From Vanrija pseudolonga (lineage: Eukaryota > Basidiomycota > Tremellomycetes > Trichosporonales > Trichosporonaceae): 64,000 bases of DNA. Under the pieces are notes generated by a model. The model did no database searches. It saw only the letters and a program-made list of their open reading frames with translations, and was not told where the DNA came from. The stretch spans positions 1,798,001-1,862,000 of the forward strand of contig NC_085852.1 in assembly GCF_020906515.1 (NCBI RefSeq), read 5' to 3'. Both the position numbers and the translations under genes were made by a program. Shown piece by piece: positions 7,385 through 63,789 of this stretch; position 1 is the stretch's first letter; the number at the start of each line of letters is the position of its first letter.

Positions 7385-8014
7385 TGTGCGCGATGTTTGC
7401 GATCGTCAGAGTTGTCGGTCGCGTCGAGCGGAATCTGGCGCCGTCCGCCTGCTCGTGTGGGGGCGGGGCGCGCGCGCTGCTTGCAATGCTCTGCTTCTAG
7501 AAGGAGGTGCAGTGCAAGGTGGGCGGCGCGTGCGAGTGCTTGCCTGCTTTGTCTTTGGCGGCGAGACGTTGAGAGTCGAGGAGTAGATGGAATATGTGTG
7601 TGACGTTTTGTAATGTGCTGTTTCGGGACGATACTAGTCGTGGTTAGTCGATTTCGGGTTGAAAGAACCAGGATATTAACGGGCCAGGACAGAGAGACGA
7701 GCGACGTGATTGCTGACATTCAACGAGCCACGACGAATAAGAGATCTACGACTTGACTCGGTCGGCTACATCAGAGTCCCTCTGCCCTGACTTGTCGACT
7801 GCAACTCTTCCGAATAATCCAGAGTAATCACGCCTACACTGACTGCTTGGCTTCACGAATGCCCTCGTCCTTGGCACAATCTCTTATAACACAATCTCGT
7901 GCACGTTCAATGCAAGGTGGTGACTACTCGACTACATGTACAGTGGCATCTCCCGGCTACTCACACGACCAAATTAGTTTCGTTGGCGTCTTTCCTGCCT
8001 GTGGTCGGCTACGG
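7385..8014. other. Intergenic downstream of the Sgt1-like gene
   Basis: No supported gene on either strand. A minus-strand frame to 7719 has no recognisable sequence. May contain the DUG2 promoter if the upstream exon is real. Confidence 0.4.
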
Positions 8015-8798
8015 CTAGTACTTGCGCGCCTCCATGCCATCAGGGGGACGCACGGGGACCGCGCCTGGCGAGGCGTCAGCTCGCGTTCGGGTTCGGGTTC
8101 GAGCCTCACACACTCACCAGTCCCCACCTGCGACCAGTCGGTCGACAGGCTCGTGCCTCCGCTCTCGGTATAGCTCTTGATCATTGCCTTGCGCGTGTCG
8201 GGGTCGGCGTTGGCGTAGATGCCTGCAAAGAGCTTCTGGAGAGCCGCGTCGCCTCCGGCGTTCGGGTCCTTGTCCCCTCCTTCCTTGTCATCGTCATCGT
8301 CGTCGACAAACTTGTCCCAGTTCTTCCGCGCAGGCTTTGGTGCAGGCGCCGATGGGGCAGGCGGTGCCGAGATGCTGGCCGGCGCTACTGACCCGGTGCC
8401 AACGACGTCGGTCCAGCCTCCTGGCTCGTCCTTTGTGAGCTTGAGCTCGATCTGGCGGGTCAGCTTTGTAGCAATTGAGCACCCACCTTGGTGCCGAGCA
8501 CGCGCTCCGAGCACTCGCCGGGCACGATCGAGCCGACGAGCGGGCCGAGCTCGAACCGCTTGCCCGCGTCCTCGCCGTTGAGAGGTGGGAGGACCACCTC
8601 GACGCGGTTGGTGAAGTAGTGTACCTTGACCTGCTCGCGTGCTGGCGACGCGCCGTAGCCCTTGATGTACAGGCTGACTGTGAGGTCGACGGGGGACTGG
8701 TAGAAGTCGTACCTGGCGTGTGTGTGAGCTATGTTGGGAACTAGCGGATCGCTTAGCATAGCTCACCGAGGCAAGGGGATGTCTTGGGGCCTTGTCAT
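8015..8798 (-). CDS. SGT1: Sgt1-like co-chaperone (CS + SGS domains, no TPR)
   Basis: Exons 8798-8767, 8712-8487, 8451-8118 and 8064-8015 give 213 aa. The CS domain begins RYDFYQSP and has VKVHYFTNRVEVVLPP. The SGS segment follows with KNWDKFVDDD, ALQKLFAGIYANAD and KSYTESGGTSLSTDW and ends PPDGMEARKY, the typical SGS finish. The family bridges Hsp90 to client complexes (SCF and kinetochore assembly in yeast). The N-terminal TPR domain of yeast and plant Sgt1 is missing: only about ten residues precede CS and the start codon is well defined. Intron 2 is 35 nt. The gene is divergent from CCT3. Confidence 0.88.
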
Positions 8799-9372
8799 GG
8801 CTACTGGGTACTCTCTCTGTAGTGTCTAGTTCCGAGTACCGAGTACGCGATCCCAACAGTTGAGAGATCGTTGTTGCCGTCGTTGTTGCCGTCGTCATCA
8901 CTGGTCGTCGCTCCCATGTTCCAGCCAGCGTCAACAGCCTTCCTCCACCTTCTCGGAGCTTTGACATCCGTGCGACTCTGAGCCACGTGTAAAATTACAT
9001 AATCCTTTTGCCACGCGACTTGGTTCGACGGGACCAAATTCTCTGACACACGCGTCTGTCGTGGAGGAGATGGATTGTCAGAGATTGTTCGAAGACACTG
9101 AGAGAGAGCGACACACGGCCGCGACACGAACAGCAACAACACTCTCATCACTTTCCTCGCCACGTCCAATCTACATCGACGCGGCAACACTATAAACCTC
9201 AAAAGCGACTCGTCGTAGAGCTCAACATCCCGCAGCTGTAAACCTCGCCGCGGCCTTTCCAGCTCTCTTAGCGTGAAATCGCCTCTCGTCGACAACTTCG
9301 ACCAGACAGACGCCTCCTTCCCTCCCCTTCTTTTCTTACCCACCACCTACCACACACCACAACTCGCCCAAC
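8799..9372. promoter_or_regulatory. Divergent promoter region SGT1 / CCT3
   Basis: 574 bp between divergent starts. TATAAA at 9191-9196 lies about 180 bp before the CCT3 ATG. A pyrimidine-rich tract (9325-9372) precedes the CCT3 start. Apart from this I see no motif array. Confidence 0.4.
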
Positions 9373-11273
9373 ATGGCTATGCCTGGAGGAATGCCCATGG
9401 TGGTCATGAGTGAGTGCGCGCTAGAGCTGCACTTGATACGCGACGCGCCGAGCTAGATCTGACTGCCAGACACTGGGCCCGAGCGCCAGCAGGGCCGCAA
9501 GGCTCAGACGGCCAACATTGTCGCTGCCAAGGTGGGTAGCTAGCAGCAGAACGTTCTAACCCATGCAGACTGTCGCCGATGTCATCAGGACATGTCTCGG
9601 CCCCAAGGCCATGCTCAAGATGGTCCTCGACCCCATGGGCGGTATCCTGTGAGCTATCATCCTGTTTACCCCGAGTATAGCTCACACCACAGGCTTACCA
9701 ACGACGGCCACGCCATTCTCCGTGAGATCGACGTTGCCCACCCCGCCGCCAAGTCGATGATCGAGCTCTCGAGGACGCAGGACGAGGAGGTCGGTGACGG
9801 CACTACCTCTGTCATCATCCTTGGTGGGTTGCGAAAGCCCTCACCATGTGCTAACCCTCAGCCGGTGAGATCCTTGCCTACTCGCTCCCTCTCCTTGAGC
9901 GTCACATCCACCCCGTTGTCATTATCCGCGCGTTCAAGGCCGCGCTCGACGATGCCCTTTCCACCATCCAGAAGATCTCGATCCCCGTCGACATCTCGTC
10001 TGAAAAGGACATGCTTTCGCTGATCAAGACTTCGATCGGCACCAAGTTTGTCTCGCGCTGGTCGGACCTCATGTGCCGCCTCGCTCTCGACGCCGTCCGC
10101 ACCGTCGCCGTCACTGCCGAGGCTGAGAACGGTCTCGTTGGCTCCAGCTCCGAGGACGGTGGCGCCGCGTTCAACATCAAGACTGTTGACATCAAGCGCT
10201 ACGCCCGTGTTGAGAAGGTTCCCGGTGGTGAGATTGAGGACTCGCGCGTCCTCAAGGGTGTCATGGTCAACAAGGACGTCACCCACCCCAAGATGCGCAG
10301 GAGGATTGAGAACCCCCGTATCATCCTCCTCGACTGCCCTCTCGAGTACAAGAAGGGCGAGTCGCAGACCAACATTGAGATTTCCAAGGAGGCCGACTGG
10401 AACCGTGTCCTTCAGATCGAGGAGGAGCAGATCAAGTCAATGTGTGACAAGATTATCGAGTTCAAGCCTGACATCGTGTTCACCGAGAAGGGCGTTTCCG
10501 ACCTCGCTCAGCACTACCTCCTCAAGGCCGACCCGCCTATTACCGCCATCCGCCGTGTGAGGAAATCGGACAACAACCGTATCGCCCGTGCCGTTGGCGC
10601 TACCATTGTCAACCGTGTCGACGACCTCCGCGACTCGGATGTCGGTACCGGTGCCGGCATCTTCTACGTCGAGAAGCTTGGTGACGAGTACTTCTCGTTC
10701 ATCGACGAGTGCAAGTCGCCCAAGGCGTGCACCATCCTTCTCCGCGGTCCCTCCAAGGACATCCTCAACGAGATTGACCGCAACCTTGCCGACGCCATGT
10801 CGGTTGCCCGTAACGTTGTCTTCAACCCCATCCTTGCCCCCGGAGGTGGTGCTACCGAGATGGCCATCTCGGTCGCCCTGTCCGAGCGGGCAAAGTCGCT
10901 CCCCGGTGTCGCTGGTGCTCCCTACAAGGCGATCGCCGACGCGCTCGAGGTCATTCCCCGCACGCTTGTCCAGAACTGCGGTGGCAACGCCATCCGCACG
11001 CTCACCGAGCTCCGTGCGCTGCACTCGGAGGGCAAGAACTACTATGGTGTCGACGGCGACACTGGCAAGGTTGTGGACATGCGCGAGTACGGCCTGCTCG
11101 AGTCTGCAAGTGTCAAGATCCAGACGCTCAAGACGGCCATTGAGTCTGCTACCCTGCTGCTCCGTGTCGACGACATTGTGTCTGCCAGGCGACCTGACGA
11201 GCACGCCGGTGGTGTCCAGACCATGGGCGAGGGCCAGGCCGAGGACCTCCAGCCTGACGGCGTGCAGATGTAA
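9373..11273 (+). CDS. CCT3: T-complex chaperonin CCT/TRiC gamma subunit
   Basis: Exons 9373-9409, 9470-9531, 9569-9648, 9693-9823 and 9862-11273 give 573 aa. It belongs to the group II chaperonin that folds actin, tubulin and WD40 proteins in the cytosol. Seen: the ATP-site motifs [35 protein letters not shown] and, near the end, [10 protein letters not shown] before [14 protein letters not shown]. The subunit resembles CCT gamma by its MPMVVMN start and [10 protein letters not shown]. Four introns of 60, 37, 44 and 38 nt crowd the first quarter and the rest is one exon, a common fungal pattern. It is a few residues longer than human CCT3 at both ends. Confidence 0.95.
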
Positions 11274-31562: not shown

Positions 31563-34477
31563 ATGCCACCCATCAAGCTCAAGCTATCCCTCGGCGGCCT
31601 GACCCCCTCGGCACCGGCGACCCCTGCGACCCCAATCATCAAGATTAAGGGCAAGAACAAGGTGGCAAACGGACATGGCGAGCCATCCACTCCAGGCGTG
31701 CTCGACTCGCCTTCCCCCGCCCCCATTGCGACTCCAAAGATAAAACTCAAGAACAAGCCAAAGAAGTCATCGGGCTTGTCGTCGAGACATGTCTCTGTGG
31801 GCGCAGGAGACGAGGAGGATGGGCTGGCCAACGGGTCAAAACCTGGCCCGTCGACGATTCGCTTGACACTGCCCAGGCCGCCCTCAGCAGCGCCTTCCCC
31901 ATCCCCCATCGCGACCTCGCCCGCCGCGACACCAGCCGCCACACCACTAACGATGACACCTGCCACACCAGCGCCCACAACACCAGTGCCCGAGCGGATA
32001 CCAAAGAAACGTGGACGTCCACCAAAGATCCGCCCCACCGCCATCCCTCCGCATGTTGTAACACCACAGGCAGTCCGTTCACCGACGGCTTCGGCGGGGG
32101 CTTCGGCCGCGAGTACGCCGCCGTCGACTGCGGAGTTCTTTAACATCAAGGCTGAGCCAGTCGACTATGATGAGGCGGACCCCCTGTCGCTGCCTATCTC
32201 GCCCGCTGCTGGAGCAATCACGCCCCTCGACGAGAGCAGCATGTCAACACCTGGGGCTTGGGAAGGCAACTCTGAGTTCACGACGTACAACCCACGGGTG
32301 GTCAAGTGGAAGCGCGTCAAGCGGCCATTCAAAGAGCTCGCCAACAAGGCGCTCCACGAGATGCGGCGCAAGGACGTGGTGAGTCTGCTGCGATGAATTT
32401 GAGGGTGTAGCTGACCAGACAGTACGGCTTCTTCCTCGAGCCGGTCAACCTAGAAGACTACCCCGACTATCTTGAGGTAGTCGGCGGGGCAGACAAAATG
32501 ATGGACCTGCAGACGATGCAGACCAAAGTAGACGAGAACGAATATCGCTCGATGGACGAGCTCGAGGCCGACTTCAAGACCATGATCGACGCGGCCCTAA
32601 AGTTTAATCTGCCTGGGACAGCACCATACCGCGAGGCCAACAAGGTGCAGGTGCACGGCCAAAAGCACATCGACCGCGCGAAGCCGCTTGTTCTCACCCC
32701 GTCACCGTCGCCGGAACGAGAGCCAGAGCCGCAACGACAGTCTGTCATCCCCGACTCTGAAGTCGGCACACCAGCCCCAATCTACCTAGGCAAGCCACAG
32801 AAGGATGTGCCTCCGAAGAACATTATTCCCGACGCCATGCTGGCGTTCCCACCAAATTCGCTTCAGGCTCAGGCAATTGGATGGAACTTGACTGGTGGCC
32901 GTATCGTTCGGCCCAAGCGAATGGTCCGCGGGCGTGAAAAGTTCTTTGGCAAATGGCGAGAGTACAGCAACGATGGTAGCCGTGACCTCGCCGAGATGGA
33001 CGACCCCCAGGAGCACCTCGACATCTTTCGCCAGCTTCGAGGCGACGAATGGCGGACAGTCACGGACTGGCCTACCATGCTGGATGGAAACCAGGGCAAA
33101 GCTTGGTGGGACTGGGAGGGCCCAGGTGGCGCCACCGGCCAGCCGCCACTTCCCAACACTGAGCGTCTAAAGCCGGAGCCACTGAAGACACGCGAGCTTG
33201 GAACATTCGACTTTGGCGTGTATCCTGACATTGAGCGTGAGCTCAGCAGTCTGCAAACTGCCAAGGATTCGCAGCCCTACGACCCAGAGGACGACGAGCT
33301 CGACGTCTTGGTGGACCAACTTCGGTCAGACGCTCCTCCACCAGTCAAGGTGCCGCCAAACTGGCCTGCGCAGTCATTTGTGAATGCCTACGACCGGCCC
33401 TCGGCAACGCACTGGCTGTACAATATGTCGCTAGGCGGTGTCCGAGGGGAAGCCTACAACAACAGTGTTCAAAAGTTCCTGGACGGTGCGATCGGAAGTG
33501 CAAGGGCGAACGGTGCGAAGGCGACCGACGAGACTGCGTCCATCCTGCAAGAATATGTGGCGAACAAGTGGCGCGGCGGTGTGCTCCAGTCGGACACCTC
33601 GCGTCTAGCCAACGATACAGTAGGAGCACTTGTCAATGCAGCGGCCAAGACGGAGGCCGGTGCTGGCAACGACGAGCCTCCTTCCCGACCCGAGCTTGCC
33701 CCCGAGGCAGTCCTCAAGAATGCTCACGACGCATACGCTCGTATCGCATTGCGTTCCCTCACATCGGCAGCGAACCCCCTCGACATCCAGCCCCTCCTCC
33801 GCGAGCCCTCCGACTTCTTATACTTAGGCGTCGGCGGCAAGTCTGGTGTCAATGACGCGGTCGCATGGGTCGGAAGCGAGATCAACCGTGTTAGCGGTGT
33901 TCGAACCGAAGCAAAAATGGCGACTGGAGCCGTCAAGGGTGATGAGGGCGACGTGGAGATGGTCGAGGCGGGGACGTCGACACCAGCACCCGCTGAGCCC
34001 GCAGCGCCTTTCGCCAACGGCGATGTGGCACACGCCGGTCTCAAGCGGCGCAACAGCGACTCAGAGCCCAATGACAATGACGCTAAGCGGCGCAAGTTGG
34101 AGGAGGGCGTGGCGTTGGAAACTGCGTCCAAAACGGCTGAGCCGGCTGTTGAAGCCGCCGCTGAGCCTGCAGCCGATGTCGCACCAACCCCGTCAGTTAC
34201 CTTGCCCACCACTTCAAACGCGACTACACCTGCGCCGATGACTCCAGCATCAGCGCCCGCTGCAGCGCCCCAACCAGCCTCGACCGAGACCGCAACCGTC
34301 ACCGCCCCCGCGCCCCCACCAGACGAGACTGAAAATGGCCTCCGACAACTCCGGCTCGAGCTCGTCGCCTTATCCAAGTTCTATCCTCTGGCATCCCTCA
34401 AAAAGATGAGCAAGGAGGACGCTGAACGCCTCCTGCCTCCCAACGTACGCAACCTCATGACACGGCCGGAAAAATAG
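31563..34477 (+). CDS. Bromodomain protein of BRD7/BRD9 type with AT-hook
   Basis: Exons 31563-32378 and 32423-34477 give 956 aa. N-terminus Pro/Thr/Ala-rich with a KKRGRPPK AT-hook (about residue 144). The bromodomain follows from about residue 255 across the junction: YGFFLEPV, YPDYLEVV, DLQTMQTKV and FNLPGT, the last matching the N-x-P-x-T acetyl-lysine pocket of BRD7/9. The C-terminal NGLRQLRLELVALSKFYPL and Ala/Pro linker are typical of chromatin subunits. BRD7/9 proteins belong to SWI/SNF-type remodellers, so a role there is inferred. The intron is 44 nt, phase 0. Confidence 0.82.
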
Positions 34478-44936: not shown

Positions 44937-47096
44937 TTACTGCTTCTTCTTGCCCTTCTTCTTGTTGACGACGACGAGGTCGCCGCCTTCGCCGCCCTCC
45001 TCTCCGCCAGCCTCCTGGATCTTGAGTCCTGCCTCTAGTGTGAACATGAGGTCGCGGACAGTTTCGTTCAAGCTGTCCACCTCGGCGGCCTTGGCGTCGC
45101 GTGCGGCGCGGACGGTGGTCAGGTCGTCGCGGAGTTTGTTGACGCGCGAGTTGAGACCCTCCGACATGGCCTTCTCGCTGCCTAGCGACGTCTGCAGGCT
45201 GCGGCTGAGCTGGAGCGCCTTTTCGGCACGCTGCTCGGCCTTCTGCCGCGCATTGTCGGCCTCGACGCGCCGCGCCTCGGCGACTGCAGCCGCGTCCTCG
45301 GCCTCCTTTGTCCGCGCGGCCGCTGCCTGCAGCTTGGCGATTACGACGGCCTGCGACGCTGCCTCCTGCTCGTAGTGCTGCCGCATGGCCTCGAGCTGCG
45401 AGCTCAAGAGGTAGCTGTACTCGAGCGTGATGGATTCGATGGTCGACATCTTCTCGGCGTCACCGGATGATGGCCCGTCGTTCACTTGGCTATCGCGGCG
45501 CTCATGTCCCTGCGAATACGACGCGCGGTTCATGGCGGAGGGGGTCGACGGTGCACTGCCTGCCACGCTCGAGGGAGCCGAGTGGCTGTGGCCGGCAAGG
45601 TTCTCGAGCGACCGGTTGAGCGGCATCGTGCGGCGTGAGGAGGTGGCTGCGTGTGCCGCGAGCGAGGAAGCAGAGGGCAGCTCGACGAGTTTGCCGTCGG
45701 TTCGTGTCTGGATCAAGCGGTGAACATAGTTGTCGCCTTGGTAGTCCCACACGCGTTGCGTTTCGACCTCCATCGCCAGCATGTGTCCGCTCTCCTCCCA
45801 GTGTCGCCTTGCATGGCCCTTCGAATATCGGCCACAGCCGACCGCGCCACAGACCACGCAGATCCAGATGTTTTCTGTGCTGTCACACATGCCGCACTGG
45901 GTGAACCGCGTGATGTCTTCGCCGCGGTCACGCTGCTGCTGCCGCTTCTTGTCCTGCGCGGAAGACAGCAGCAGATGGCTGACGCGGCAGACGGGACAGC
46001 GACTATCGCCCCACTTGCGCAGGCAGTCGCAGTCAAACGTGTGGGCGCATGGCAGCGTCACGAGCCCAGTCACGGTGGAGTCGAGACGCTCCAGACAGAC
46101 GGGGCACGAAGGGAGCTCGTACAGGCCCTTGCTGTCCACGCCATGGAGCAACTTTGGCAAGGCGCGCGCACGAGAAGCGTACACGCTTGGCGGGAAGGCA
46201 GGGATGGCGACGTCCTTGGGCTCTGCACCCTCCAGCTTGTGGAGCACAAGATGGTGGATTCTGATGGGGTGGCAGGTCTCGCGCGTGTCGAGCGTCGAGA
46301 ACGCCTTGCCGGTGAAGATGATCATGAAATCGGACGCCTGCAGCGGGTCGCGGAACTTGAGAATGACGATCGAGCGATTTGGCGTCGTTGCCTCCCTGCG
46401 GGAGTTAGCACGGCGCCACTCCCACCTCCTCGTGCTAGCTCACCTAATCATCCGAACACCTTCCAAGCACGTGGCCCAGCCGCCGAGGAACTCTAGCAGG
46501 TCGGCAGGCCGCATCCAAGCCGGCACAGCGAGGATGGCGACGAGGCTTCCGTCCTCTCCTTCGGCGTGCTCACCCGCATAGTCGCCCTCGGCGGTCCCAC
46601 TGCGCGAGCTCTCGCCGTTCTGCCCCTCAAGCCTGGCGATGAGGGAAGGCGGGGGCTCGTGCTTGAAGAGGTGGACGACGCCCCGGCCAAACTGCGACAC
46701 GCCGGTCGCGGCGGTCGTATCGACAGGGTTCGGTCCGGGGATGTGCGCGAGCAGCGGCTGGCGTGAGAGCGCGTCGGGGGTCTCAGGCGGCTCTGGGGTC
46801 CGTTTGCGCGGCTTTGTGCGCGGGCTGCTGCTGCTCCCCCCCGGAGCGTCAAGCGACCCGCGCGCCCGCGACCCCGGCACGGCTCTGCTGCTCCCTCCCT
46901 GCGATGTTCTCGGCTTGTCAACCATCGCGGGCTCGTCCCACGCCTTGTCGAGGCTCTTCTCGCGCGTAAAGTCGATCCAGTCGACCTCGATCTCGCCGAG
47001 GCGCCAGTCGGTGTCTGGGGGCTGTTCGTTCTCTGGGTGGACAGCGATGACTATCGAGTACGTGTTGTAGTCGCTCTTTGTGTGAGAGTAGGTCAT
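44937..47096 (-). CDS. ETP1: BRAP2/Etp1-like RING and UBP-zinc-finger protein
   Basis: Exons 47096-46444 and 46395-44937 give 703 aa. Domain order: N-terminal BRAP2 RRM-like part (WMRPADLLEFLGGW, RSIVILKFRDPLQASDFM), RING finger CPVCLERL...CAHTFDCDCL...CPVC, ubiquitin-binding ZnF-UBP (QCGMCDSTENIWICVVCG, CGRYSKGHARRHWEESGH), then a long coiled coil and a Lys-rich end (KKKG). In humans BRAP2/IMP is a Ras-responsive E3 ligase; yeast Etp1 serves ethanol tolerance. The intron (48 nt) splits the first domain and joins AG+G. The first Met is taken as MTYSHTK; the open frame extends further upstream without recognisable sequence. Confidence 0.9.
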
Positions 47097-47466
47097 GAGG
47101 CCGTGGGCATGTCGTGGCGTGATACAAGTGATGAGAAGAGAGCGAAGGAAACAAAAGAGCACCGCAGAATGCTGGGTGGCGAATGTGTATTCCAAAGTCG
47201 ACGCGGTGTCGACGAACGTGACGTAACTCCCAGTGTGGCGGAGTTGCCTCCGCTCAACTCCAGTCGGGCCGTCTTTCGGCAACGACTGCCAGCCAAAGAC
47301 GACATCGGCGATCACGGCCCGACTGAGACGCAATGTTGACACCGACAAACCGGGCGGCGATCCTGCCGCAGTCGCCTGCATTGCGCCGCAAGACAGCAAT
47401 ACAGCGGTTATAACTCGCCATGCAGCGAGCGCCTCAGCCTCCCCCCACCCACCTCGCGCCAGCGCC
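47097..47466. other. Divergent intergenic region ETP1 / hydrolase
   Basis: 370 bp; promoter space for both genes, no further feature seen. Confidence 0.45.
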
Positions 47467-48757
47467 ATGCCCCCGACCATCTCGCCGCGCGGCAAGGCCG
47501 CCCTCGACGACGCGCTCGTTGCCGCCGTCGCTGACCCCCTCATCCCGGCACAGTTCTGGGGGGTGACCACTGCCCAGGGGCCTATCTACTTCAACTGCGG
47601 GGGCGAGCGGGTGCTACACGAGCCGGAGAAGGGCGTGGTCAACGAGGACACAAGTGAGTGGTCAACCGATCCCCGTTGACAGACCCCAGTGCTCCAGCTG
47701 TGGTCGATGACCAAGCTCGTCACGTCCGTCGCGTGCCTTCAGCTCGTGGACCGCGGTGTGCTGTCCCTCGACGACGAGGAGCTCGTGGGGGCCCACCTCC
47801 CAGAGCTGGCGGCACAGCGCATCCTCACGGGATACTCTGACGCCGGGGAGGAGCTCTGGGCCGACCGCACCGAGCCCATCACGCTGCGCCACCTCCTCAG
47901 CCACACCTCGGGCATCTCGTACCCCGAGATGCCGCCCACCATCTCCCGGTGGCAGAAGGAGCACAACCACCCGTGGTACTTTGCCCCCAATGGCGGCGTG
48001 AAGGCCTTCACCGTCCCGCTCGAGTTTGAGCCTGGCGTACGGTGGTCCTACGGGCTGGGTATCGACTGGGCCGGCTTCCTCGTCGAGCGGGTCACGGGGG
48101 TCACGCTGGGCACCTACTTCCAGGAGCACATCTTCGCTCCGCTGGGCATCACCTCGCTCACTTTCACGCCTACCCCCGAGGTTCACGAGCGGCTGATGAA
48201 GGAGACGTGGCGCGACGCTGCGGGCAACCTTATCCAAGCTGACCCCGACACCCGCCTCCTCGACCCCGCGACAATCAAGCTCGACTCTGGCGGCGCCGGG
48301 TTGCTCGGCACAGCGAAGGACTACCTCCGCTTCCTTCAGGGCGTGCTCGCATCCCAGTCCCCCGGTGGGATCATCTCCCCGGCAAGCTTCGCGCTGCTGT
48401 TCACCAACACCCTCCCAGCGGACCGCAGCGCGCGGCACTACGCCGACATGCAGGCGTTCATGGGCGAGTGGGGCACGTACGACTTCACAGCCGACCTCGG
48501 GTTCTCGGTAGCGCTGGCCGTCAACGCGAAGGACGCGAAGAGCGGCCGCAGGGCCGGCAGCGGCGCATGGGGCGGTATGGCCAAGACGGACTTCTGGATC
48601 GACCCGGCCTCAGGCATTGCGGTGGGTGCAGCCGAGTTGGCGGCGCTGACCCCAGGGATTCTGCGGCACCCAGCTCGTCGGGGGCGAGGTCAACCCCGAC
48701 CCCTTTGCGGGCGTGTATGCCGCCTTTGAGCGGCAAGTGTACGACGCGCTAGAGTAG
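47467..48757 (+). CDS. Beta-lactamase-fold serine hydrolase (esterase/transferase type)
   Basis: Exons 47467-47653, 47690-48621 and 48656-48757 give 406 aa. Class C-like motifs: the nucleophile S-x-x-K in LWSMTKLV, a YGLGIDW segment at the usual Tyr position, and HTSGISYPEM. The C-terminal FWIDPASGIA|GFCGTQL is made only by splicing the 34-nt second intron; read through, the protein would end in an unrelated Arg/Pro tail. Eukaryotic members act as esterases or acyltransferases (LovD-like) rather than antibiotic hydrolases. No signal peptide, so cytosolic. Confidence 0.85.
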
Positions 48758-53752: not shown

Positions 53753-55441
53753 TTAAAACTTGACGCCGAGGTCGGTGGCGAGCTCGCGGAAGACGGACAG
53801 GCGCTCGGCGGCGTATTGCTGGGGGTGTCAGTGGGGTTGCACTTGGCAGTTACACATACGAGGTAGTCAAACTCGGGCACATAGCCCTCCGTGTTGGCAA
53901 TAATGTTGTTGATCTGCTCGCCGGCCTGCACAACGCCCCAGAGACACCAGAAGGCAGAGCACGCTGGGCTCCAAAGCCGCACTTCGCGGTCGAGGCGCTC
54001 CACCTTGTCCTGCTTGATGCCCGCGGCGTCGTTGATGATTTCTTCGCCGTGGCTCAGGTCAACAGACAGATACGCGCGGTACCACGCCTCGCGCTGGGCA
54101 TCGGTCGGGTAAGGGAAGTGAGGCTTGAGCGACCAGGAAAGCGTCTCGTGGTGGTAGTTTGCGCGCCACTCGTGGAAGTGGTTGGCAATGTCGTATCCGC
54201 GGTGGTTTGGCGCCGCGTACTCAAAGTCGATGACAATGTACTTGTGATGCTCGGGGACGCCAGCTGGGAGCTCGGCATCGAGCAGGAGCAGGTTTCCGTA
54301 CTGCGTGTCGTTGTCTGTTTGTGGTCAGCGAGTTCAACGCAGCGTGCTCGGCCCGACGTACGCGCAAACACCAAGCCCTTGCCCTTGTCGGCGTGCTCGG
54401 TCACGAAACGGCGGTACGTCTCGAGCTCATCGCGGAGCTTGTGCAGGCCAAAGCTCTCGACCCAGACCTCCCACTTGCCGCCGGCCTGCGATAGCGTCGT
54501 GAGCGTCTCCTCGGCCATGGGGATCCACTCGTGAATGTTGCGCCAGACCATCGGCTCGCCGTCGCGTCCAGCCTCGTAGCCAAGCAGGTTGAGGTCCACC
54601 GAGTGCAGCTCGCGCATGCGGCGGGCAATGCTCGACGCGATCTCGGGAACGCGAAGCTCCTCGGCGCGCAGAGCACGCGAAGGGAAGAACTGCTCGACAC
54701 GGCCGTTGAGGAACGTGCCGTACACGCGCGGGCCGAGACCGTACGTCGTCGAGAGCTGGTGCAAGATACGCAGCTCCTGGTCACGGTTGATGAGCTGGCC
54801 GGACGACGGGCCGTACACGCGCAGAAGGAGCGTCGGGGGGAACTTGTCGGACGTGATCGGCGGCGGGTGGTCCGGGTCAGTGGCAGGCATGGTGGGCGTG
54901 AGGAGGGGCGACATGGAGGGGGAAGTGGGCGTCGGACGCGGGTTGAACGACACGAAGAAGACGGCGTTGGTGAGCGCGCCCGACACCTTTTGCAGGTGGA
55001 TGCGCGAGGGAGTGAGGTCGGGGTGAGTCCAGAGGGGCACATGGAGGCGGCGGAGGATCGATAAGACCTTGGTCTTGAACACTGGGTGGCGCCACTCGCT
55101 GCGGGGCGTGTCAGCTATGCCTTCCTCGCCTTCCCCGGCAACACGTACCCGGCGTCAATGGACAGATCGACATGCTTGACGCCCGCGACGCCCGATGGGT
55201 CCTCCCACGGCGTCGACGGGGCCGAGGGGGTGCCGTCAAGCCAGAACTCTGAGAGCTTTGAGAAGCTGCCGGTCGACGTCTTGCGGCGCACCAGGCCAGG
55301 CGCGGGGACTGGGGTGGACGAGTGCAAGCTGCCCGAGAGGCTGGGGATCTGCGCCGGCGATTGCGGGGGGTGGGCCGCGAGGAGGAGGGGCGAGAGCGGG
55401 GCCGTGGCGTCCAGCGGGCGGTGGTCGGGCGTCAGGACCAT
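53753..55441 (-). CDS. CKI1: Choline (ethanolamine) kinase
   Basis: Exons 55441-55149, 55098-54362, 54314-53860 and 53818-53753 give 516 aa. It phosphorylates choline for the Kennedy pathway of phosphatidylcholine synthesis. Kinase core: LLLRVYGPSSGQLINRDQEL, then FARHNDTQYGNLLLLD with the Brenner motif HNDTQYGNLL formed by splicing (C+AC gives His), and IDFEYAAPNHRGYDIANHF, the choline-kinase motif. The N-terminal 100 residues are Ser/Pro-rich with RRKTSTGS, a possible phosphorylation site as in yeast Cki1. Introns 41-50 nt. Confidence 0.93.
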
Positions 55442-56437
55442 TGTGTGACGAGGTGAAGACGAAGAGAGACCGCAAGTAGTCGTAAACAAAGATGTTTATA
55501 TTGCCCAAAAAGTAAGAGCTAGCAGGTGGCGGCGGCGGCGAGGGAGGGGGAAAGACCACAAAATGTCGCGTGACCCGTAGTTGGAGCTAACTTGTCGGGG
55601 TGGCGGCAGGGCAGGCTGGGGGGGCGGCAGTTCGGGAATAGCAATCGCAACCAAGGGGAATGCGATATGCTTTGGATCTGGCGACTGTGGCTGCGAGTGT
55701 GCGGGGGGGGCGAGAGGGGTAGTTGGGATATGGAGAGATGCACAGTCGCTGTTGCTGTTGCCGTGGCCGTGTCGTTGTAAACGTTCCCCTTGATAGCACG
55801 ATTGATCTTTATTGGTGGAGTTGTGTCCCAACTTTGTGTCTGGTCGCCGGCAACGCGTGATGCACTCTCTCTGCTCGTACCCCGGCTCCCCAGGCCGACC
55901 GCCGGATTGACGGAGACTTTCTGGGCACGCTGCCCCGAGTTCCCCGACAAAACAAAGCAACCTATGACAGCATGGGTCGGACTGGGGAATTTGCTTCCGA
56001 TGACAACCAGCGACACGCGAAAACCACACGAGTTTGCCTCCGTGTCGATCACGGAGAAACCGCGGTACTCCGGTCATGTCGGTGGTCCATCGGCGCGTTG
56101 GTGGGTCGTGTTCTCGAACCGTCGCGATTCTTTCGGGTTTGGCTGGCAGAGGACACAACAAGGTGAACATGTCGTGTATTTGACCACCACAAGTAGACGA
56201 CAACAAACGAACAACGACGACCACGGCAACGACACACTCACCACCCCACCCCCCCGCACCACCCATGGCATTGACTCTTCCACGGCATCGCGCATAGACC
56301 TCGACGTGTGCACACCTCATCTCACCACCCATCTCCTCCACCTTGCCCCGCGCCGCCCAGGCCACCACGCGTCACGCGCCTCACCCATCCACCCCCGCCT
56401 CCTCCCCCCGCCTTGCTGCCGGCGGCTCCATCAAACC
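55442..56437. other. Divergent intergenic region
   Basis: 996 bp between choline kinase (-) and the disordered protein gene (+). Open frames on both strands carry no recognisable sequence. Pyrimidine-rich leader from about 56230. No repeats or TATA noted. Confidence 0.45.
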
Positions 56438-57862
56438 ATGGCGGCACACTACCCAGCCTCGTCGCCCACATTCCCCGGCTCGCCTTCGACGGCACAGCAC
56501 CCAATGTTTGCTGCCACGCCGTCCGGCGCCCACCCACACGGGTCGCCATTCACCCCAGGCTTCCCCTCGCGCACGCCCACACCGCCGCTCTCGTCACAAC
56601 GCAAGCGCCGCGCAGGCAGCCCCCCCTCCGAAGGTCAGGCTGGCCCGTCCAACTGGGCCTCGGCGTCCGCCGCGAGCAGCCCGGGGCTGCACGACTCGAA
56701 GCGACGGAGGCCAAACCTCGCCAACGGCTTCTCGGCCATGTCCATCTCCCAGCAGGCGACACCTTCCCCATCACCTCTGCCCCGCGGACCAGTTCAGCAA
56801 AACCAAAGCGACGCAGACGACGACGAGCTGCTGGAGCCTACCTTGCCCCCCGTCGACGGTGACGTTGCTGTCGAGGTGTTGCCCGACGGGTCGCCCACGT
56901 CGTCGCGCCACGCGAGGTTGAACCGTCCACCGTGGCACCGCACAGCTTCATACTCTTCGACCTCCCCAAGCGAAGAGGACTATGATTCGGACGCGACGTT
57001 TCGCCTTCCGCACGAAAAGGCGCGTCGACGCACCGCGACGCCGATGCAGCCGAGCGAGGTCGAGCACCCCATTGAGACGATTGCCCTGCGTGGGCATTCT
57101 CGGCAGGGAAGTGCCGCCCACGGTCCGAAAGTCGAGTACTTTGACACGCCGATTAAACGTAAGAAGCGGAGCAACGAGGATGAGCCAAAGCCAAAGCGAA
57201 GAAAAGAGGGAATGGACGTTGATCTGGACCATCTCCCGCCAGAGTCGTACGGCCCAGGATGGTACGAGCCAGAGAAGGACCGAATCGTCGTCACGTCGCT
57301 CTCGAGTCCCGAGTCATCGCCCCCACCGCCCAGCCGTCGGGGGTCCTCGCCATCGCCCAAGCGTGACTCGCCGCCCAAGGAGAGCTACTACGACTACGAG
57401 ACGAACAAGCACCTGTCGCAGCCTGGCACAAGCGGCTTCACCATCTCGCCGTCGCTGCTCACCCACATTATCAACGCGCAGCGCGACCAGATTGTGGGCG
57501 GCGGGTTCCAGGACTCGCCGTCGCAGGAGCGCGGGCTCGTGCTCTACCGGCCATTGGGCATCCCAGCAGCCGAGGACGTGGTCAAGGAGTGGTCGGCTCG
57601 CGGGCGGCGTGGCAGCAGCAGCTCACGGCAGAAGCCGCCGCACCAGTTCCCCGACCCCGACGCCCACAGATTTGAGGAGGTCGATGACGACGAGGACCTC
57701 ATGTCGTCTGAGCAGCCCGTCGTCGGAGTGCCGGTCGACGATGACGCCGGTATGGACGTCGAGGGCAGTGGAGGGTTCGGATACCAGCCGTACCCACAAG
57801 CCTACCCCCAGGCTGATTCGCCCTGGGGCCATGGTGACGACGACGACATGGACATGGATTAG
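56438..57862 (+). CDS. Disordered nuclear-type protein of unknown function
   Basis: One exon, 474 aa. Ser/Pro/Thr-rich with basic clusters that look like nuclear localisation signals (SSQRKRRAGS, DSKRRRPN, PIKRKKRSNEDEPKPKRRK) and an Asp-rich end (HGDDDDMDMD). Possible short ordered pieces are ESYGPGWYEPEKDRIVVTSL, TISPSLLTHIINAQRDQI and GLVLYRPLGIPAAEDVVKEW, repeated-looking in none of its neighbours. The frame is open far upstream; this ATG is chosen for its CAAACCATGG context. No family recognised. Confidence 0.65.
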   Translation: MAAHYPASSPTFPGSPSTAQHPMFAATPSGAHPHGSPFTPGFPSRTPTPPLSSQRKRRAGSPPSEGQAGPSNWASASAASSPGLHDSKRRRPNLANGFSAMSISQQATPSPSPLPRGPVQQNQSDADDDELLEPTLPPVDGDVAVEVLPDGSPTSSRHARLNRPPWHRTASYSSTSPSEEDYDSDATFRLPHEKARRRTATPMQPSEVEHPIETIALRGHSRQGSAAHGPKVEYFDTPIKRKKRSNEDEPKPKRRKEGMDVDLDHLPPESYGPGWYEPEKDRIVVTSLSSPESSPPPPSRRGSSPSPKRDSPPKESYYDYETNKHLSQPGTSGFTISPSLLTHIINAQRDQIVGGGFQDSPSQERGLVLYRPLGIPAAEDVVKEWSARGRRGSSSSRQKPPHQFPDPDAHRFEEVDDDEDLMSSEQPVVGVPVDDDAGMDVEGSGGFGYQPYPQAYPQADSPWGHGDDDDMDMD

Positions 57863-58077: not shown

Positions 58078-60141
58078 ATGTCCAGCACGAGCCCCAGGAA
58101 GCGTGGGGACCTGGAGGACTTGACGTTCTACGTGCTACAGGTTGGCCGCCCGCCGTGGGATGCAGAGCGGGACATGCAGCTGATCCGGGTGAGTGCTGGG
58201 CGGCCGCCTTCCTCCCACACCGCTGACGCTCCAGCAACGCGGCGGCATCGTTATCGACGACCCAGGAGATGCGACGATTGTCATTATCGACACACCAGCG
58301 GCAAGGCCTGACCGCGAGACCAAGCACCGCGTGTACAAGTACGCCGAGCCCCTGGCCGATGACGCACCGGTCGACGAGTGGACCGTCGACCTGCTGGTGC
58401 GGCGGTTCGCAACCGAAGACAGTGGGACTATCGTGCTGTTATCCAAGTGGCTTCAGAAGAACAATGCGGCCTTTGGTCCGCTGTACAGTGGATACCTCGT
58501 CCGGTGGGTTGTGTGCGCTGCCGGAGCTGACAGGGAAGCGGTGTGCACGTCCCTGCCGAGTCGGAGGACGAGGAGCCCGAGCCACCCGAGCCGCCGATGC
58601 CCGATATCCCAAGCGACAACGGGAGTGATTATGAACCGGCGGAGGAGAAGGTCTCCACCCCGGCAGGCAAGGGCAAGGGCAAGCAGCGTGCCGACAGTGA
58701 CGAGGAGTACTCGCCTGCTGGCGCGCGAAAACGCACTAACGGTCGGCACAAGGCCGTCGAGTCACCCAAGGCCCGGCGCGGGCGGAGGAAGAAACAGGAC
58801 TCGAGCAGCGATATCGAGTTTGTCGGATCCAGTCAACCACAGGGCTGGAAGCGGTTCATGGTTGATACTGAAGAAGAGGACGAGCCGGTGAAGCGGGGAC
58901 CTGGGCGGCCGAGGAAGGTCGTGCCGGAGGACGGCGGCGAGGTCGCTAAGCGCGGCCCAGGACGACCAAGGAAGCCGACCTTCGCGGCGAACCCGCCCAC
59001 GCCGAGAGCGTCGATGTCGGGGGCTATCTTCGCCACTGGGCGGTACCCGCTCACGTTCTACGTCGCGCCGAGCGACAACGACCTGCTCGAGCGGCTGATT
59101 CCCTCCGCGGGCGGGGGCGACCTCGTTTCGGCGTCCGAGGCGAACATTGTCATTCTGCCGCTCGCGCAGGGCGAGGCGCCGACGACCCGCGAGCACATCA
59201 AGCTTGTGGAGAATGCCCGTGGAGGGGTGGCGCGTGTTGTGAGCGAGGACTGGGCGTGGGACTGCTTTCGCGCGCACCCGCCCACGCTGCTCGACCTCGC
59301 CGAGTACGAGGTGTCGCTGGACGGGGCGGGGTCGTCGCAGAGGAACGCGAGAGCTGTGCCCTCTTCACAAAGGTCGGCACCGTCGTCGTCCCAGCGGCAC
59401 GCATCTGCGTCGTCACAGGCCAAGCGCGCGGCCTCCAGCAGCCAGAGCACACCGGCCAAGAGGCCGCGGGCGTCGTCAACCCTGTTTGAGGAGGACCACC
59501 GGTGGGACTCGTCGCGACGGACCAACCACGAGATGGCGTACTATGAGGACGATGAGCTCGACTTTGATAGTATTCTAGAGGAACACGTCGAGCGCGTCGA
59601 GCTGCTCATCCACTACCTCCGCCGTTGGGACAAGCAGGGCGACAAGGGCGACTTTATCAAGAGCCTGGCGAAGACTGTGGGTCAGACTGGGGGTATGTGC
59701 GCTGATAACAGAACTCGGTGCGCGGGGCGATAGACATCTACTACAACAAGGGGTACCAGCACCTCATTGACCGACAAGTACCGGGGCTCATGCGCGCGGG
59801 GCGGCGGGCATCGGGCAAGGTGGTCCCGGTCACGAGTACTCCGTCCAAGGCGGCCCCAGTGGCCAGCAGCACGTCGTCCAAGGCCAAGACTACCCGGCCT
59901 CGACGCGACCCCGACGAAATCAACGTGGAGCTCATTAAGGAGGACCAGAAGGAGCGGGTCGTCGAGCTCATCAAGGCGCTACGGGAGTGGGACAAGACTG
60001 GCAGCAAGTCCCAGAAGCTGAAGGACTTGGGCAGGGAGGTGGGTTCAGGCCTGGTTTCGCCGCTGATGCCAGATTCCCGGCGCCATGACGCTATACTATG
60101 CCCACAGAGACTTGGTAGAGAGACAGGTGCCCGGGTTGTAG
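58078..60141 (+). CDS. BRCT-domain protein A with two AT-hooks and two C-terminal VPGL modules
   Basis: Exons 58078-58188, 58235-58503, 58539-59676, 59712-60038 and 60073-60141 give 637 aa. N-terminal BRCT-like region: DLTFYVLQ, GGIVIDDPGDATIVIIDTP, VLLSKWLQKN. Two AT-hooks KRGPGRPRK follow, then a central BRCT: GAIFATGRYPLTFYVA, GGGDLVSASEANIVILPL, RVVSEDWAWDCFRAHPP. By eye this is closest to the BRCT of Rap1-type telomere proteins (weak). Two copies of a novel helical module end the protein: LIHYLRRWDKQGDKG...AIDIYYNKG...DRQVPGL and LIKALREWDKTGSK...AMTLYYAHR...ERQVPGL, the second finishing at the stop. Followed 219 bp later by its paralogue. Confidence 0.78.
58893..58980 (+). other. Two AT-hook motifs in BRCT protein A
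   Basis: Two copies of KRGPGRPRK about 24 residues apart, encoded by similar but not identical DNA. AT-hooks bind the minor groove of A/T-rich DNA, so protein A is probably chromatin- or DNA-associated. Confidence 0.7.
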
Positions 60142-60360
60142 GGGACTATCCACGTATGTATCATCATTTAATGCACATCTCATGTGGCCCCAGTGTCGCG
60201 ACCGGGTGACCAGCAACCGTCCTTGGCCCGGGGTTGATTCAACTGTCGCGCCCGTTTCGCGGACAACCAAAGTGGAGGTCCAGCACACGACACACCAGTT
60301 CACCCCGCGCGACGACATCACCCAACCTTGTTGTTGTTCTTATCCACAACTTACACCAAA

Positions 60361-63300
60361 ATGTCCCGCAAAGCAGGGCTGTACGAGGACCTCAAGTTCT
60401 ACGTGCAGTCTGCACAGCGCGACGCAGTCGAGGTCGACCGAGACATCAAGCTCATCGAGGTGGGTCTCGCAAGTCTATCGTCACTGACGCGACCAGCGCA
60501 GCGAAGGCGAGGTCGTCGATACGCCGTACGACGCAGACCTGATCATTGTCGAGACGCCACTCGCACAGAAGTGGTCCGCGAAAGCCTGCTACCGGTACGA
60601 CTTCACCAACCCACACCGACACCGCAAGGGCAAGTGGACCGCCGAGCAGCTCATCTACACGTTCGGCATGGGCGAGCCGCGCAAGGGCCGCGCCGTGCTG
60701 CTGCAGGGCTGGCTGCGCAACGGGTTCACGCTCATGGGCGAGGCGCAGATCGGGCGCACGTACAGCGGGTGGCTGGTCCGGTGGGTGCGGTCGTTGAACA
60801 AGCGAGCTGACGGAAGCGGGCGTAATGTGACAGGCTTTGAGTTTGTCGTCGACGACGAGCCGAAGAAGAAGAAGGTCAAGCGGCGCGACTCTCGGCCGCG
60901 GCGCAGGAGTAGGAAGAGCAGCGATAGCGACAGTGACAGCGAGTCGGACGGCTCGGCGAGCTATCGTAGCGGGAAGAGCAGTTCGAGTGGCGGCAGCAGC
61001 AAGAGCGACTCGGAGCCAGAGCTCATCCGCGGGTCGTCGGCGAGCCGCTCGCCGTCGCCGCCTGCGCGATCACGGCGCGCGAGCCAGCTTGCGTCCGGGA
61101 GCGGGCGCGCGAGCCAGCAGGCGTCGGCGAGCCAGCCAGGCAGCCGGCCCAGGTCGCTGCACGTGTCGCCGGCCAAGGTCGCGTCGCCCGCTGCAACGCA
61201 GCCGCGCCGGCGTATCGTCGTGTCCGACGGCGAGGAGGACAAGGCGAGCTCTGAGCCGGAGGACGACGATCCTTGGTTCGAGCCGATGGACGTGGACATC
61301 GAGCTGGCGTCATCTCCCGTCCTCAAGCCGCGGGCGTCACGCAACGCCCCCTCGAGCGCGTCGCCAGTGCTCAAGCCCCGGTCGCAGCCTGTCCCTGCTT
61401 CACGCAGCGCGTCACCGGTCCTCAAACCCCGCTCGCAGCTACGCCCGCCGTCCCCCGTGGCATCGCCGGCGCCATCACAGCCCCGCAGCGGAATCTTTGC
61501 GCAGGGCAGGCGATACCCGTACACTTTCTACCTGGCCGACGGGCACAAGCTCCTCGAGACAATCATCGAGATGGAGGGCGGCGAGCTCGTCCCCCTCGAC
61601 GAGGCTCCAATCGTACTTCTTCCCCTTGGAGTCGGCGAGGCGGCCACCGACACGCACACCGTGACCTCGTCGCTGGTATCGGCACCAGCCCGCTCGCCCG
61701 CGTGCTCTCGGACGACTGGGTGTGGGACAGCGTCAAGGCGCACCCCCCGCGCCTGCTCGACCTGAACGACTACACTGTGCCCCTGCGCGCTGTAGCCAAG
61801 CGGCGCTTAAGTCCGTCGCCGTCGCCCGAGGCGCCGTTGAAGCGGGCGCGCGGCGTTGCCAGCCCGGCATCCGTGTCGTCCAGAGATACGCCCCGCGCTA
61901 CTCGCTCAAGATCCGACGTGCCGCCGACGCTGCTGTCCCGCGCTACGAGGCGTGCAGCAGCCACGGCCATGCCACCCCCGCCCGTGCCGGTGCGTACTAC
62001 GCGCTCGGCATCGCAGTCCCGCCCTGCGACGCCTGCGTCACAGCCTGAGTGTGCGCGCTCAAGATCTGTCAAGCCAGAGGTGGAGCTGCTTTCGCGCGGT
62101 GCGTCCCGCGCGCCGTCAGCCAAACCTGCCACACGCCGCGTGAAGAAACGCACGCCGACCCCGGAGCCAGAGAGCGATAGCGATAGCGACAGCGACGCCT
62201 GGATCGAGCCCGTCATCACCATTGACGACGTGGATACGGACGACGAGGACACGTTTATTCGGCTGGTGCGCAACCTGCGCAGCTGGAACGGCAAGGGCAC
62301 GAAGCAGGCGTACATTGAGGGTCTGGGCCGAAAGGTGAGAGTGTGTGGCGCGACAGAGCTGACGCGCAGGGTCTCGTTGCTGGCGCCACAGAGCTCTACT
62401 ATGACAAGTATGGCGTGCTGGTCGACAACAACGTCCCCGGGCTGAAGAGAGACAAGGGGGAGAAGGTCGACAAGGGGAAGCAGGTTGCAGGTGGCCGTCG
62501 GACCCGAGGCCAGCAGGCGGAGAGCGAGGACGAGGAGGATTTCAAGCCAAGCGCTTCACGATGGGGCAAGCCCAACGGAGGCGGCTTTTCCATCCTCGGC
62601 AACGCGTCGGCTGCGGCGCATGCACGCTGGGCAAGAGTTCGCAGCAAGGCCAACAACGACGCAGACGGCAGCGAAGAGGATGAGGAGAAACCCGATGCCA
62701 ACGACGACGCAGACGGTAGCGAGGAGGACGGGGAGAAGCTGAGCGATGACGAACCTCAGCCAAAGCGCCCCTCGGTGTCAAAATCAGCGTCACCAGTGAA
62801 GCCAGATTCCCGCGTTGCATCGAAATCGCCGGTGAAGAATGGTTCGCCTGCCAAGCCCGCGTCCCCCGACATTGCCAAGTCCAAGTCGCCAGTGAAGAGC
62901 GCATCGCCCGTGAAGAACGCGTCGCCTGCAAAGGACGACACGCCAGCGAAAAGCCGATCGCCCGACAAGAGCAGGTCCCCGGTGAAGCGCCCCTCGCCGT
63001 CGCCGTCTGCCAATGGGGACGACAACACGGACGCGGAGAGAGTGGAAGTGGAGGAGCCCCGGGAAGGCGATGAGAGAGGTGAGGAGGAGATCCTGGAGGT
63101 TGATGAGAGAGTGGAAGAGGAAGAGGAAGCGCTTCGTGAAGACGGTGCAGAGGAGGAGGATGAGCGTCGGGATGAAGCGTCCGAGGACGACGACAGGCCC
63201 CACGAGGATGAGCCACAAGTCGACGCCGAGGATGACGATGACGGTGAGCCTGATGCCGTCAACCAGCCCGAGGAGGACGAGCCTGATGTGGACGACAAGC

Positions 63301-63789
63301 CTGATGAGGTCGATCCCGATGACGAGAACAAGGCCGACGAGGGCGCAGCCGACGACGACAAGCCAGAGGAGAACGAAGCTGAAGACGCCGACGCCAACTC
63401 CGACGACGAGGTGCCCAACAACACCGACAACGCGATCGAGGTTCTGGAAACCGACACCGCCGACGATACCGACATTGAGATCACGGGAGCTGCGGCAGCC
63501 CCGGCCCCACCTGAACCCAGTGAGACTCAACCCCATGACGATGGCAGGGCTGAGCGCCAGGACAGGGGTGAACACGCAGAACGTGGTGCAGAGAAAGAAG
63601 AAGCGCAAAAGGAAGTCGTCAACGGGCAAGACGGAGCCGAAGAAGCGCAAGAAGAAGGCAAAGAAGCCGAAGCGGGAGTCGACGGTGAAGCGGGAAGTAA
63701 CAGTGAAGCGAGAGGTGACGGTGAAGCGGGAGACGACAGTCAAGGCGGAGGCAGCGACGCCGCGGCGAGTCAAGGTGGAGGGGGCATAG
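60361..63789 (+). CDS. BRCT-domain protein B, tandem paralogue, with SP(V/A)K repeats
   Basis: Exons 60361-60459, 60497-60780, 60817-62334, 62370-63519 and 63566-63789, about 1090 aa. Same plan as its neighbour: DLKFYVQS, ADLIIVETPLAQ, YSGWLVR, then an SR/Ser-rich linker, central BRCT (GIFAQGRRYPYTFYLA, APIVLLPLGVGEA, RVLSDDWVWDSVKAHPP) and one module (LVRNLRSWNGKGTK...ATELYYDK...NNVPGL). The C-terminus adds SPVK/SPAK repeats, a long acidic region and a Lys-rich tail (QRKKKRKRK, VKREVTVKRE). Reading frame changes by two bases near 61650-61660. If the last intron is retained the acidic frame runs to 63857. Intron 2 (36 nt) is stop-free but matches its paralogue's intron. Confidence 0.7.
62760..63010 (+). 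repeat. SP(V/A)K-type repeats in BRCT protein B
   Basis: About ten Ser-Pro-(Val/Ala/Asp)-Lys units (SASPVK, KSPVKNGSPAK, SRSPDKSRSPVK). Such S/T-P-x-K units resemble linker-histone tail motifs and CDK sites. The repeat is visible in protein; the DNA units differ in length and sequence. Confidence 0.65.

Follow-up and report, generated by a model that had tools for sequence, protein, structure and literature searches.

Two adjacent genes of Vanrija pseudolonga, a trichosporonalean basidiomycete (Trichosporonales), are tandem paralogs that belong to a family of proteins with BRCT domains. The genes, here called A and B (Table 1), lie in the window C4:1798001-1862000 (contig C4), that is, the whole stretch of 64,000 nucleotides analysed, which is part of a 24.9-Mb assembly against which the own-genome searches were run. 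Together with C, D, E and F, located on the same chromosome, they were shown, as far as sequence and intron place can tell, to be at least six genes of common ancestry arranged in two clusters. A and B also encode a small C-terminal unit, referred to below as the VPGL module.

A first-pass annotation of the window had described two same-strand genes 219 bp apart with one domain plan. Coordinates, gap, strand and domain order were all borne out (the stop codon of A ends at 60141 and the ATG of B is at 60361), the end of B requiring an inferred intron. In BLASTP comparisons of A with B, run with low-complexity filtering, BRCT1 was matched at E=4e-16, BRCT2 in two pieces at 1e-9 (a piece that extends into the linker) and 4e-10, and the module at E=3e-7 and 2e-6. 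Similarly, global alignments gave Z values of 14.7 for BRCT1 and 23.0 for BRCT2 (200 shuffles) and of 11.4-13.6 for the three module pairs (500 shuffles). Since the relation was kept both in filtered BLASTP and against shuffled sequences, the likeness between A and B is beyond chance and is not an effect of low complexity, an explanation that the annotation had allowed for. For their part, the three module copies, previously aligned by eye, each carry a phase-0 intron (35, 34 and 35 nt) at one common alignment position. Thus, A and B are real duplicates, and the original observation is confirmed.

The spliced translation of gene A matches letter for letter the database protein P0001, annotated as LOC62_04G005971 of V. 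pseudolonga. Protein searches with A yielded three relatives, including V. pseudolonga and V. albida proteins, and no relative was found with B; such searches need several common exact words, and thus they are no proof of absence elsewhere. Between A and the V. albida protein P0003, whose annotated form is without BRCT1, 86 of 102 residues of BRCT2 (84%) are identical, as are 89% and 79% of the residues of the two modules and 34-65% of those of the linkers. Directly upstream of A, at 55781-57859 of the window (+), there is an open frame of 693 codons in which Pfam matched nothing at E<=0.01.

Gene B is not open throughout, given that a one-step frame shift occurs inside its BRCT2, at about 61648-61662. 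No fitting GT-AG intron was found at this point (two pairs were listed at lengths of 30-130 nt, both with the wrong remainder), and an intron of this class was rejected. One GC-AG pair, as worked out by hand, would restore the frame, but at the cost of residues aligned with C and E, and it was also discarded. The break may be an assembly error or a true one, each being as possible as the other. A frame shift of this kind, together with a dense word search in which BRCT2 and the module of B were the queries and none of 1569 candidates was hit at E<=10, so that not even a V. pseudolonga protein appeared, would fit B being a decaying pseudogene and the pair being what gene birth and death have left behind, with A alone functional. 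We regard this as unlikely, while giving it appreciable weight: in B, the module and either half of BRCT2 retain a good alignment with A, splice sites and frames are in place on both sides of the break and are followed by regular motif arrays, an assembly error would account for the shift equally well, and a misannotated B may lie outside the length range of the search. The intron that follows BRCT1 of B (60781-60816) is in phase 2, as in A. The last intron (63520-63565) was inferred, and the end of B at 63789 depends on it; it was chosen because the resulting frame closes in a regular lysine-rich tail and not in the rival acidic frame, which continues to 63857.

Own-genome searches with the domains of A revealed the second cluster, which lies on the same contig at a distance of approximately 510 kb, and searches with the cluster members added one more gene to it. 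The cluster spans C4:2369700-2377500 in the order F(-) C(+) D(+) E(-), the gene structures having been read from fetched DNA. This order suggests a duplicated pair, consisting of a BRCT1-only gene and a two-BRCT gene, with a rearrangement. The VPGL module was seen in none of these four genes. D and F have a single BRCT domain, whereas the other four genes of the family have two. As judged by eye, a phase-0 intron lies two codons ahead of the GG, or of its counterpart, in BRCT1 of A to E, the borders in F being less sure; a phase-0 intron occupies the same place in BRCT2 of C and E, and BRCT2 of A and B is without it. The closest BRCT1 pairs by shuffle Z were A-B (14.7), C-E (16.3) and D-F (17.8), the weakest pair being B-D (4.7). 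In a tree of the six BRCT1 domains, in which branches are long, A grouped with B (94/96) and C with E (81/83); no branch reached the mark for strong support, and D and F were not resolved as a pair. Hence the local expansion proposed in the first-pass annotation was upheld and proved larger than noted. Two further candidates, C3:3580318 (E=0.15) and C4:2395642 (E=2.35), were read and discarded as family members, no BRCT pattern being visible by eye. An open reading frame without a Pfam match sits between C and D (L021:7321-8253, in coordinates of the fetched segment).

The BRCT identity of the family is settled, because Pfam cut-offs that neither A nor B reaches are exceeded in the paralogs C and E. 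Thus, the scores (with cut-offs in parentheses) were 30.8 (27.3) for BRCT1 of C, 29.4 (21.3) for BRCT1 of E and 21.5 (21.3) for BRCT2 of C, whereas BRCT2 of E, with 22.2 bits, remained below its cut-off of 27.3. No Pfam BRCT match was obtained for D or in the scanned domains of B, and F stayed under the cut-off. With shorter segments and E<=0.1, BRCT_2 (PF16589) was matched by three of five BRCT2 and one of six BRCT1 rows, and BRCT (PF00533) by one of five and two of six, respectively. The profiles of BRCT1 and BRCT2 scored 24.1 against each other, with a maximum of 17.4 in 60 column shuffles. The conserved W of the last helix is invariant in BRCT1 (6/6 rows). The GG of the turn after helix 1 is present in all five BRCT2 rows, and in BRCT1 it is changed to EG in B and to TG in F; in BRCT2 of E, the W aligned with SxDW is replaced by Y.

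The S/T-G that follows strand 1, a feature of the phosphate pocket, was found by a simple pattern in 0 of the 11 BRCT rows, so phosphopeptide reading is not favoured. This bears on the idea that the family members are damage mediators that read phosphopeptides in the manner of TopBP1/Rad4, to which the VPGL module would have been added for recruitment. The best PDB profile matches of BRCT1 are indeed TopBP1 chains, the BRCT2 model was structurally closest to Rad4 BRCT3,4, though without significance, and B contains CDK-like sites. Nevertheless, the E-values are weak, and long linkers part the BRCT domains, leaving no tandem packing, so that together with the missing pocket feature we consider such a role improbable.

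A link with Rap1 and telomeres had been proposed from the FYV-type start of the BRCT domains, and A and B might accordingly be Rap1-derived telomere proteins in which Rap1-type BRCT domains are joined to a module that diverged from Myb or from the Rap1 C-terminal domain. This did not hold as the leading idea and was dropped after a separate Myb_Rap1 gene had been found and the profiles ranked. A single Myb_Rap1 domain (PF08914) was found in the genome; it lies on contig C3 (C3:4175178-4175345; 33.7 and 29.5 bits, above the cut-off of 27.1), and no Myb was detected in A or in the scanned pieces of B (E up to 5-10). The Rap1 C-terminal domain (PF11626) was found in none of A, B, the whole genome and the controls, with a model that may not see it here. 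The ranking comprised 15 distinct BRCT segments, 13 of them other BRCT matches of the genome (four of which were additionally used in the frame that BRCT_2 had given) and two of them Vanrija Rap1 segments, which were chosen by eye and are not recognised by Pfam, making their ranks soft. At the top stood a BRCT of what we take to be a Pescadillo-like protein, with hhalign probabilities of 92% for BRCT1 and 79% for BRCT2, followed by a presumably Rev1-like one (43% and 62%, respectively). Rap1 BRCT1 ranked 8th for family BRCT1 and 14th for family BRCT2, and Rap1 BRCT2 10th and 11th, respectively.

Some features do point towards Rap1. One is the FYV-type start, and another is a phase-0 intron in Rap1 BRCT1 at the codon place used in the family, where 11 of the 13 other genome matches appeared uninterrupted by eye (in a search that favours unbroken domains). 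In addition, family BRCT1 scored 18.2 against Rap1 BRCT1, above all 60 shuffles (maximum, 16.3). However, the other three family-Rap1 profile comparisons fell within the shuffles, and the module, tried as a Rap1 C-terminal domain, was rejected with an hhalign probability of 0.1% against the end of Vanrija Rap1. A start of FYV/FYL/FYI type is also present in the two best-fitting non-Rap1 BRCTs. The intron place and the one profile score are consistent with common BRCT descent and too thin for Rap1 membership, and with Myb_Rap1 in a gene of its own and the low ranks, an origin from Rap1 seems very improbable. A review on fungal duplex telomere proteins deals with Tay1 and TRF-like proteins in basidiomycetes, and the passages of it considered here do not mention such a BRCT family (PMC7952879).

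The five available copies of the VPGL module (two in A, two in P0003 and one in B) follow the common pattern L...LRxW...GxK......L...GA...YY......L....VPGL. Own-genome searches, one per window copy, found the module in A and B alone; queries from A missed the copy of B and the reverse, which implies low sensitivity, so that other genes could contain diverged copies beyond the reach of these searches. The annotation had described the module as unassigned, and this was sustained: no Pfam match above cut-off was obtained with the five copies, nothing below E=0.2 was found among PDB sequences, and the one NCBIfam match, in one of three copies, is not credible. Myb/SANT and the Rap1 C-terminal domain had been named as identities that would overturn that description, and neither was matched in sequence, the Pfam Myb/SANT models matching none of the five copies. 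An antitoxin-type helix-turn-helix domain (PF21716), hit by one of five copies (E=0.0086; 16.4 bits, with the cut-off at 27), was not believed, and PDB matches to a death domain and a nucleoporin piece, at E values of 0.21-1, were taken as chance.

In the structure model of P0003, copy 2 of the module reached predicted local distance difference test (pLDDT) block means of 91-94, with 87 in the last block, and contains four predicted helices, the first of them long (423-438, 445-451, 459-465 and 467-473). Thus, one module copy is confidently predicted to be a compact four-helix domain. Copy 1 showed pLDDT values of about 45-58, and the remainder of the model was mostly poor. A structure search with the whole P0003 model gave no significant match.

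Outside the domains, the sequences are less conserved. In the linker of A, identical in V. albida at 70 of 123 positions, residues 214-230 form a block with 15 of 17 identities around DSSSDIEFVGSSQ. We take this motif to resemble a SUMO-interacting motif (SIM), although F is not the best residue for its third position. When matched loosely, the SIM pattern is hit 13 times in A, and most of these hits have other causes, such as BRCT strands. Psi-K-x-E motifs occur six times in B, a number reached by 0 of 500 shuffles, five of them within the last 34 residues, compared with none in A; with the pattern widened to accept the residue A, the linkers of C and E contain three and one, respectively. 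B as a whole contains 11 [ST]Px[KR] sites (reached by 0/500 shuffles), against 3 in protein A (reached by 50/500). For both motifs, the shuffles ignore repeat expansion.

The annotation had contrasted AT-hooks in A with SPxK repeats in B as different ways of touching chromatin. Both motif sets are indeed present, but not at equivalent positions: the AT-hooks lie between the BRCT domains of A and the SPxK array follows the module of B. Both AT-hook motifs are found in P0001 and P0002, and none was noted in B; in P0003 of V. albida the first is degraded and the second is absent, which makes the contrast between A and B weak.

The reading we put forward, tentatively and with somewhat more doubt than belief, is that A and B, as tandem duplicates within a two-cluster BRCT family of at least six genes, encode nuclear scaffolds with a docking module. 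The proteins of the family would bind partner proteins through their BRCT domains, probably not via the classical phosphopeptide pocket, and regulation would act on sites in the long disordered linkers and tails. A has two copies and B has one of the small helical VPGL module, which may serve for docking or self-association. The BRCT domains and modules have changed little compared with the linkers and tails, a pattern suggesting that the proteins specialised for different partners within a single process of chromatin or DNA maintenance. Among the readings considered, we infer that the scaffold is the least demanding. A bolder arrangement, which we regard as a long shot, would make A and B a SUMO-wired pair: B would be a multi-SUMO acceptor gated by its CDK-like sites, A would read it via IEFV, and the modules would assemble a lineage-specific chromatin scaffold, in which case the VPGL module would be a new oligomerisation domain.

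The locus offers a compact case of BRCT proteins multiplying in one yeast lineage and gaining a module of unassigned kind. Should this be confirmed, the set of known interaction modules would gain a small domain, and the family would illustrate how a DNA-maintenance scaffold diversifies through its linkers and the number of its modules. No description of the family was found in open-access full text on Trichosporon, Tremellomycetes and Vanrija, a scope outside which most subscription journals lie. The numbers of BRCT proteins are given as varying widely among fungi in the part of PMC12818731 considered, and the passages considered of PMC12820176 contain no BRCT.

A Pfam scan of 18 window frames outside A and B, covering part of the window, identified two adjoining frames with BRAP2, RING and zf-UBP domains at 44940-47585 (-), presumably a gene for a BRCA1-associated protein 2-like protein (BRAP2/Etp1 type). 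One frame at 4573-6231 (-) contains WD40 repeats and then the start of a peptidase M20 domain, an arrangement resembling that of Dug2 of glutathione breakdown. Ordinary neighbours include frames with a bromodomain (32411-34474, +), choline kinase (54057-55154, -), TCP1 chaperonin (9855-11270, +) and an SGS domain (7960-8994, -).

Table 1. Genes, domains and motifs of the BRCT family (window positions for A and B, contig C4 positions for C to F)
Feature	Position	Strand	Remarks
Gene A	58078-60141	+	637 amino acids; two BRCT domains, two VPGL module copies
Gene A exons	58078-58188, 58235-58503, 58539-59676, 59712-60038, 60073-60141	+	five-exon model
BRCT1 of A	58117..58504	+	interrupted by phase-0 intron 58189-58234, two codons ahead of GG
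DSSSDIEFVGSSQ of A	58798..58836	+	conserved linker motif, SUMO-interaction-like
Two AT-hook-like PGRPRK motifs of A	58891..58977	+	between BRCT domains
BRCT2 of A	59017..59322	+	BRCT_2 19.6 bits, under 27.3 cut-off
VPGL module copy 1 of A	59578..59795	+	interrupted by phase-0 intron 59677-59711
VPGL module copy 2 of A	59940..60138	+	interrupted by phase-0 intron 60039-60072
Gene B	60361-63789	+	frame-broken; two BRCT domains, one VPGL module
Gene B exons	60361-60459, 60497-60780, 60817-break, break-62334, 62370-63519, 63566-63789	+	last intron inferred
BRCT1 of B	60388..60781	+	interrupted by phase-0 intron 60460-60496
BRCT2 of B	61487..61785	+	contains the one-step frame shift (about 61648-61662)
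VPGL module of B	62242..62450	+	interrupted by phase-0 intron 62335-62369
SPxK array of B	62778..62993	+	nine [ST]Px[KR] sites, residues 774-839
Lysine-rich tail of B	63685..63786	+	five psi-K-x-E SUMO-consensus-like motifs; rests on inferred last intron
Gene F	core 2369874-2370152	-	BRCT1 and short acidic tail
Gene C	2370747 to about 2373026	+	BRCT1-linker-BRCT2
Gene D	from about 2374678	+	BRCT1 and acidic tail
Gene E	2375531-2377479	-	BRCT1-linker-BRCT2

Compared with known systems, A to F are homologs of the Pfam families BRCT_2 and BRCT, with BRCT1 of C and E and BRCT2 of C passing the cut-off and A, B, D, F and BRCT2 of E missing it, and they differ from these families in the long stretch, seen by eye, between strand 3 and the W-helix of BRCT1. 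With Rap1/TERF2IP they have in common the FYV-type BRCT start and the place of the BRCT1 intron, but A and B are without the Myb_Rap1 carried by the separate gene, and the profile rank is low. TopBP1/Rad4 and DNA ligase IV are weakly matched among PDB profiles (E=0.0034 for TopBP1 and E=0.0085 for DNA ligase IV), and unlike them the family is without the S/T-G pocket motif, as judged by pattern, and has a different domain layout. The Pescadillo-like and Rev1-like BRCTs, encoded by separate genes at C4:941240 and C4:3104845, start with TFYL and TFYI, and each aligned with the family over 79-83 columns in one comparison and over 22-31 columns in the other.
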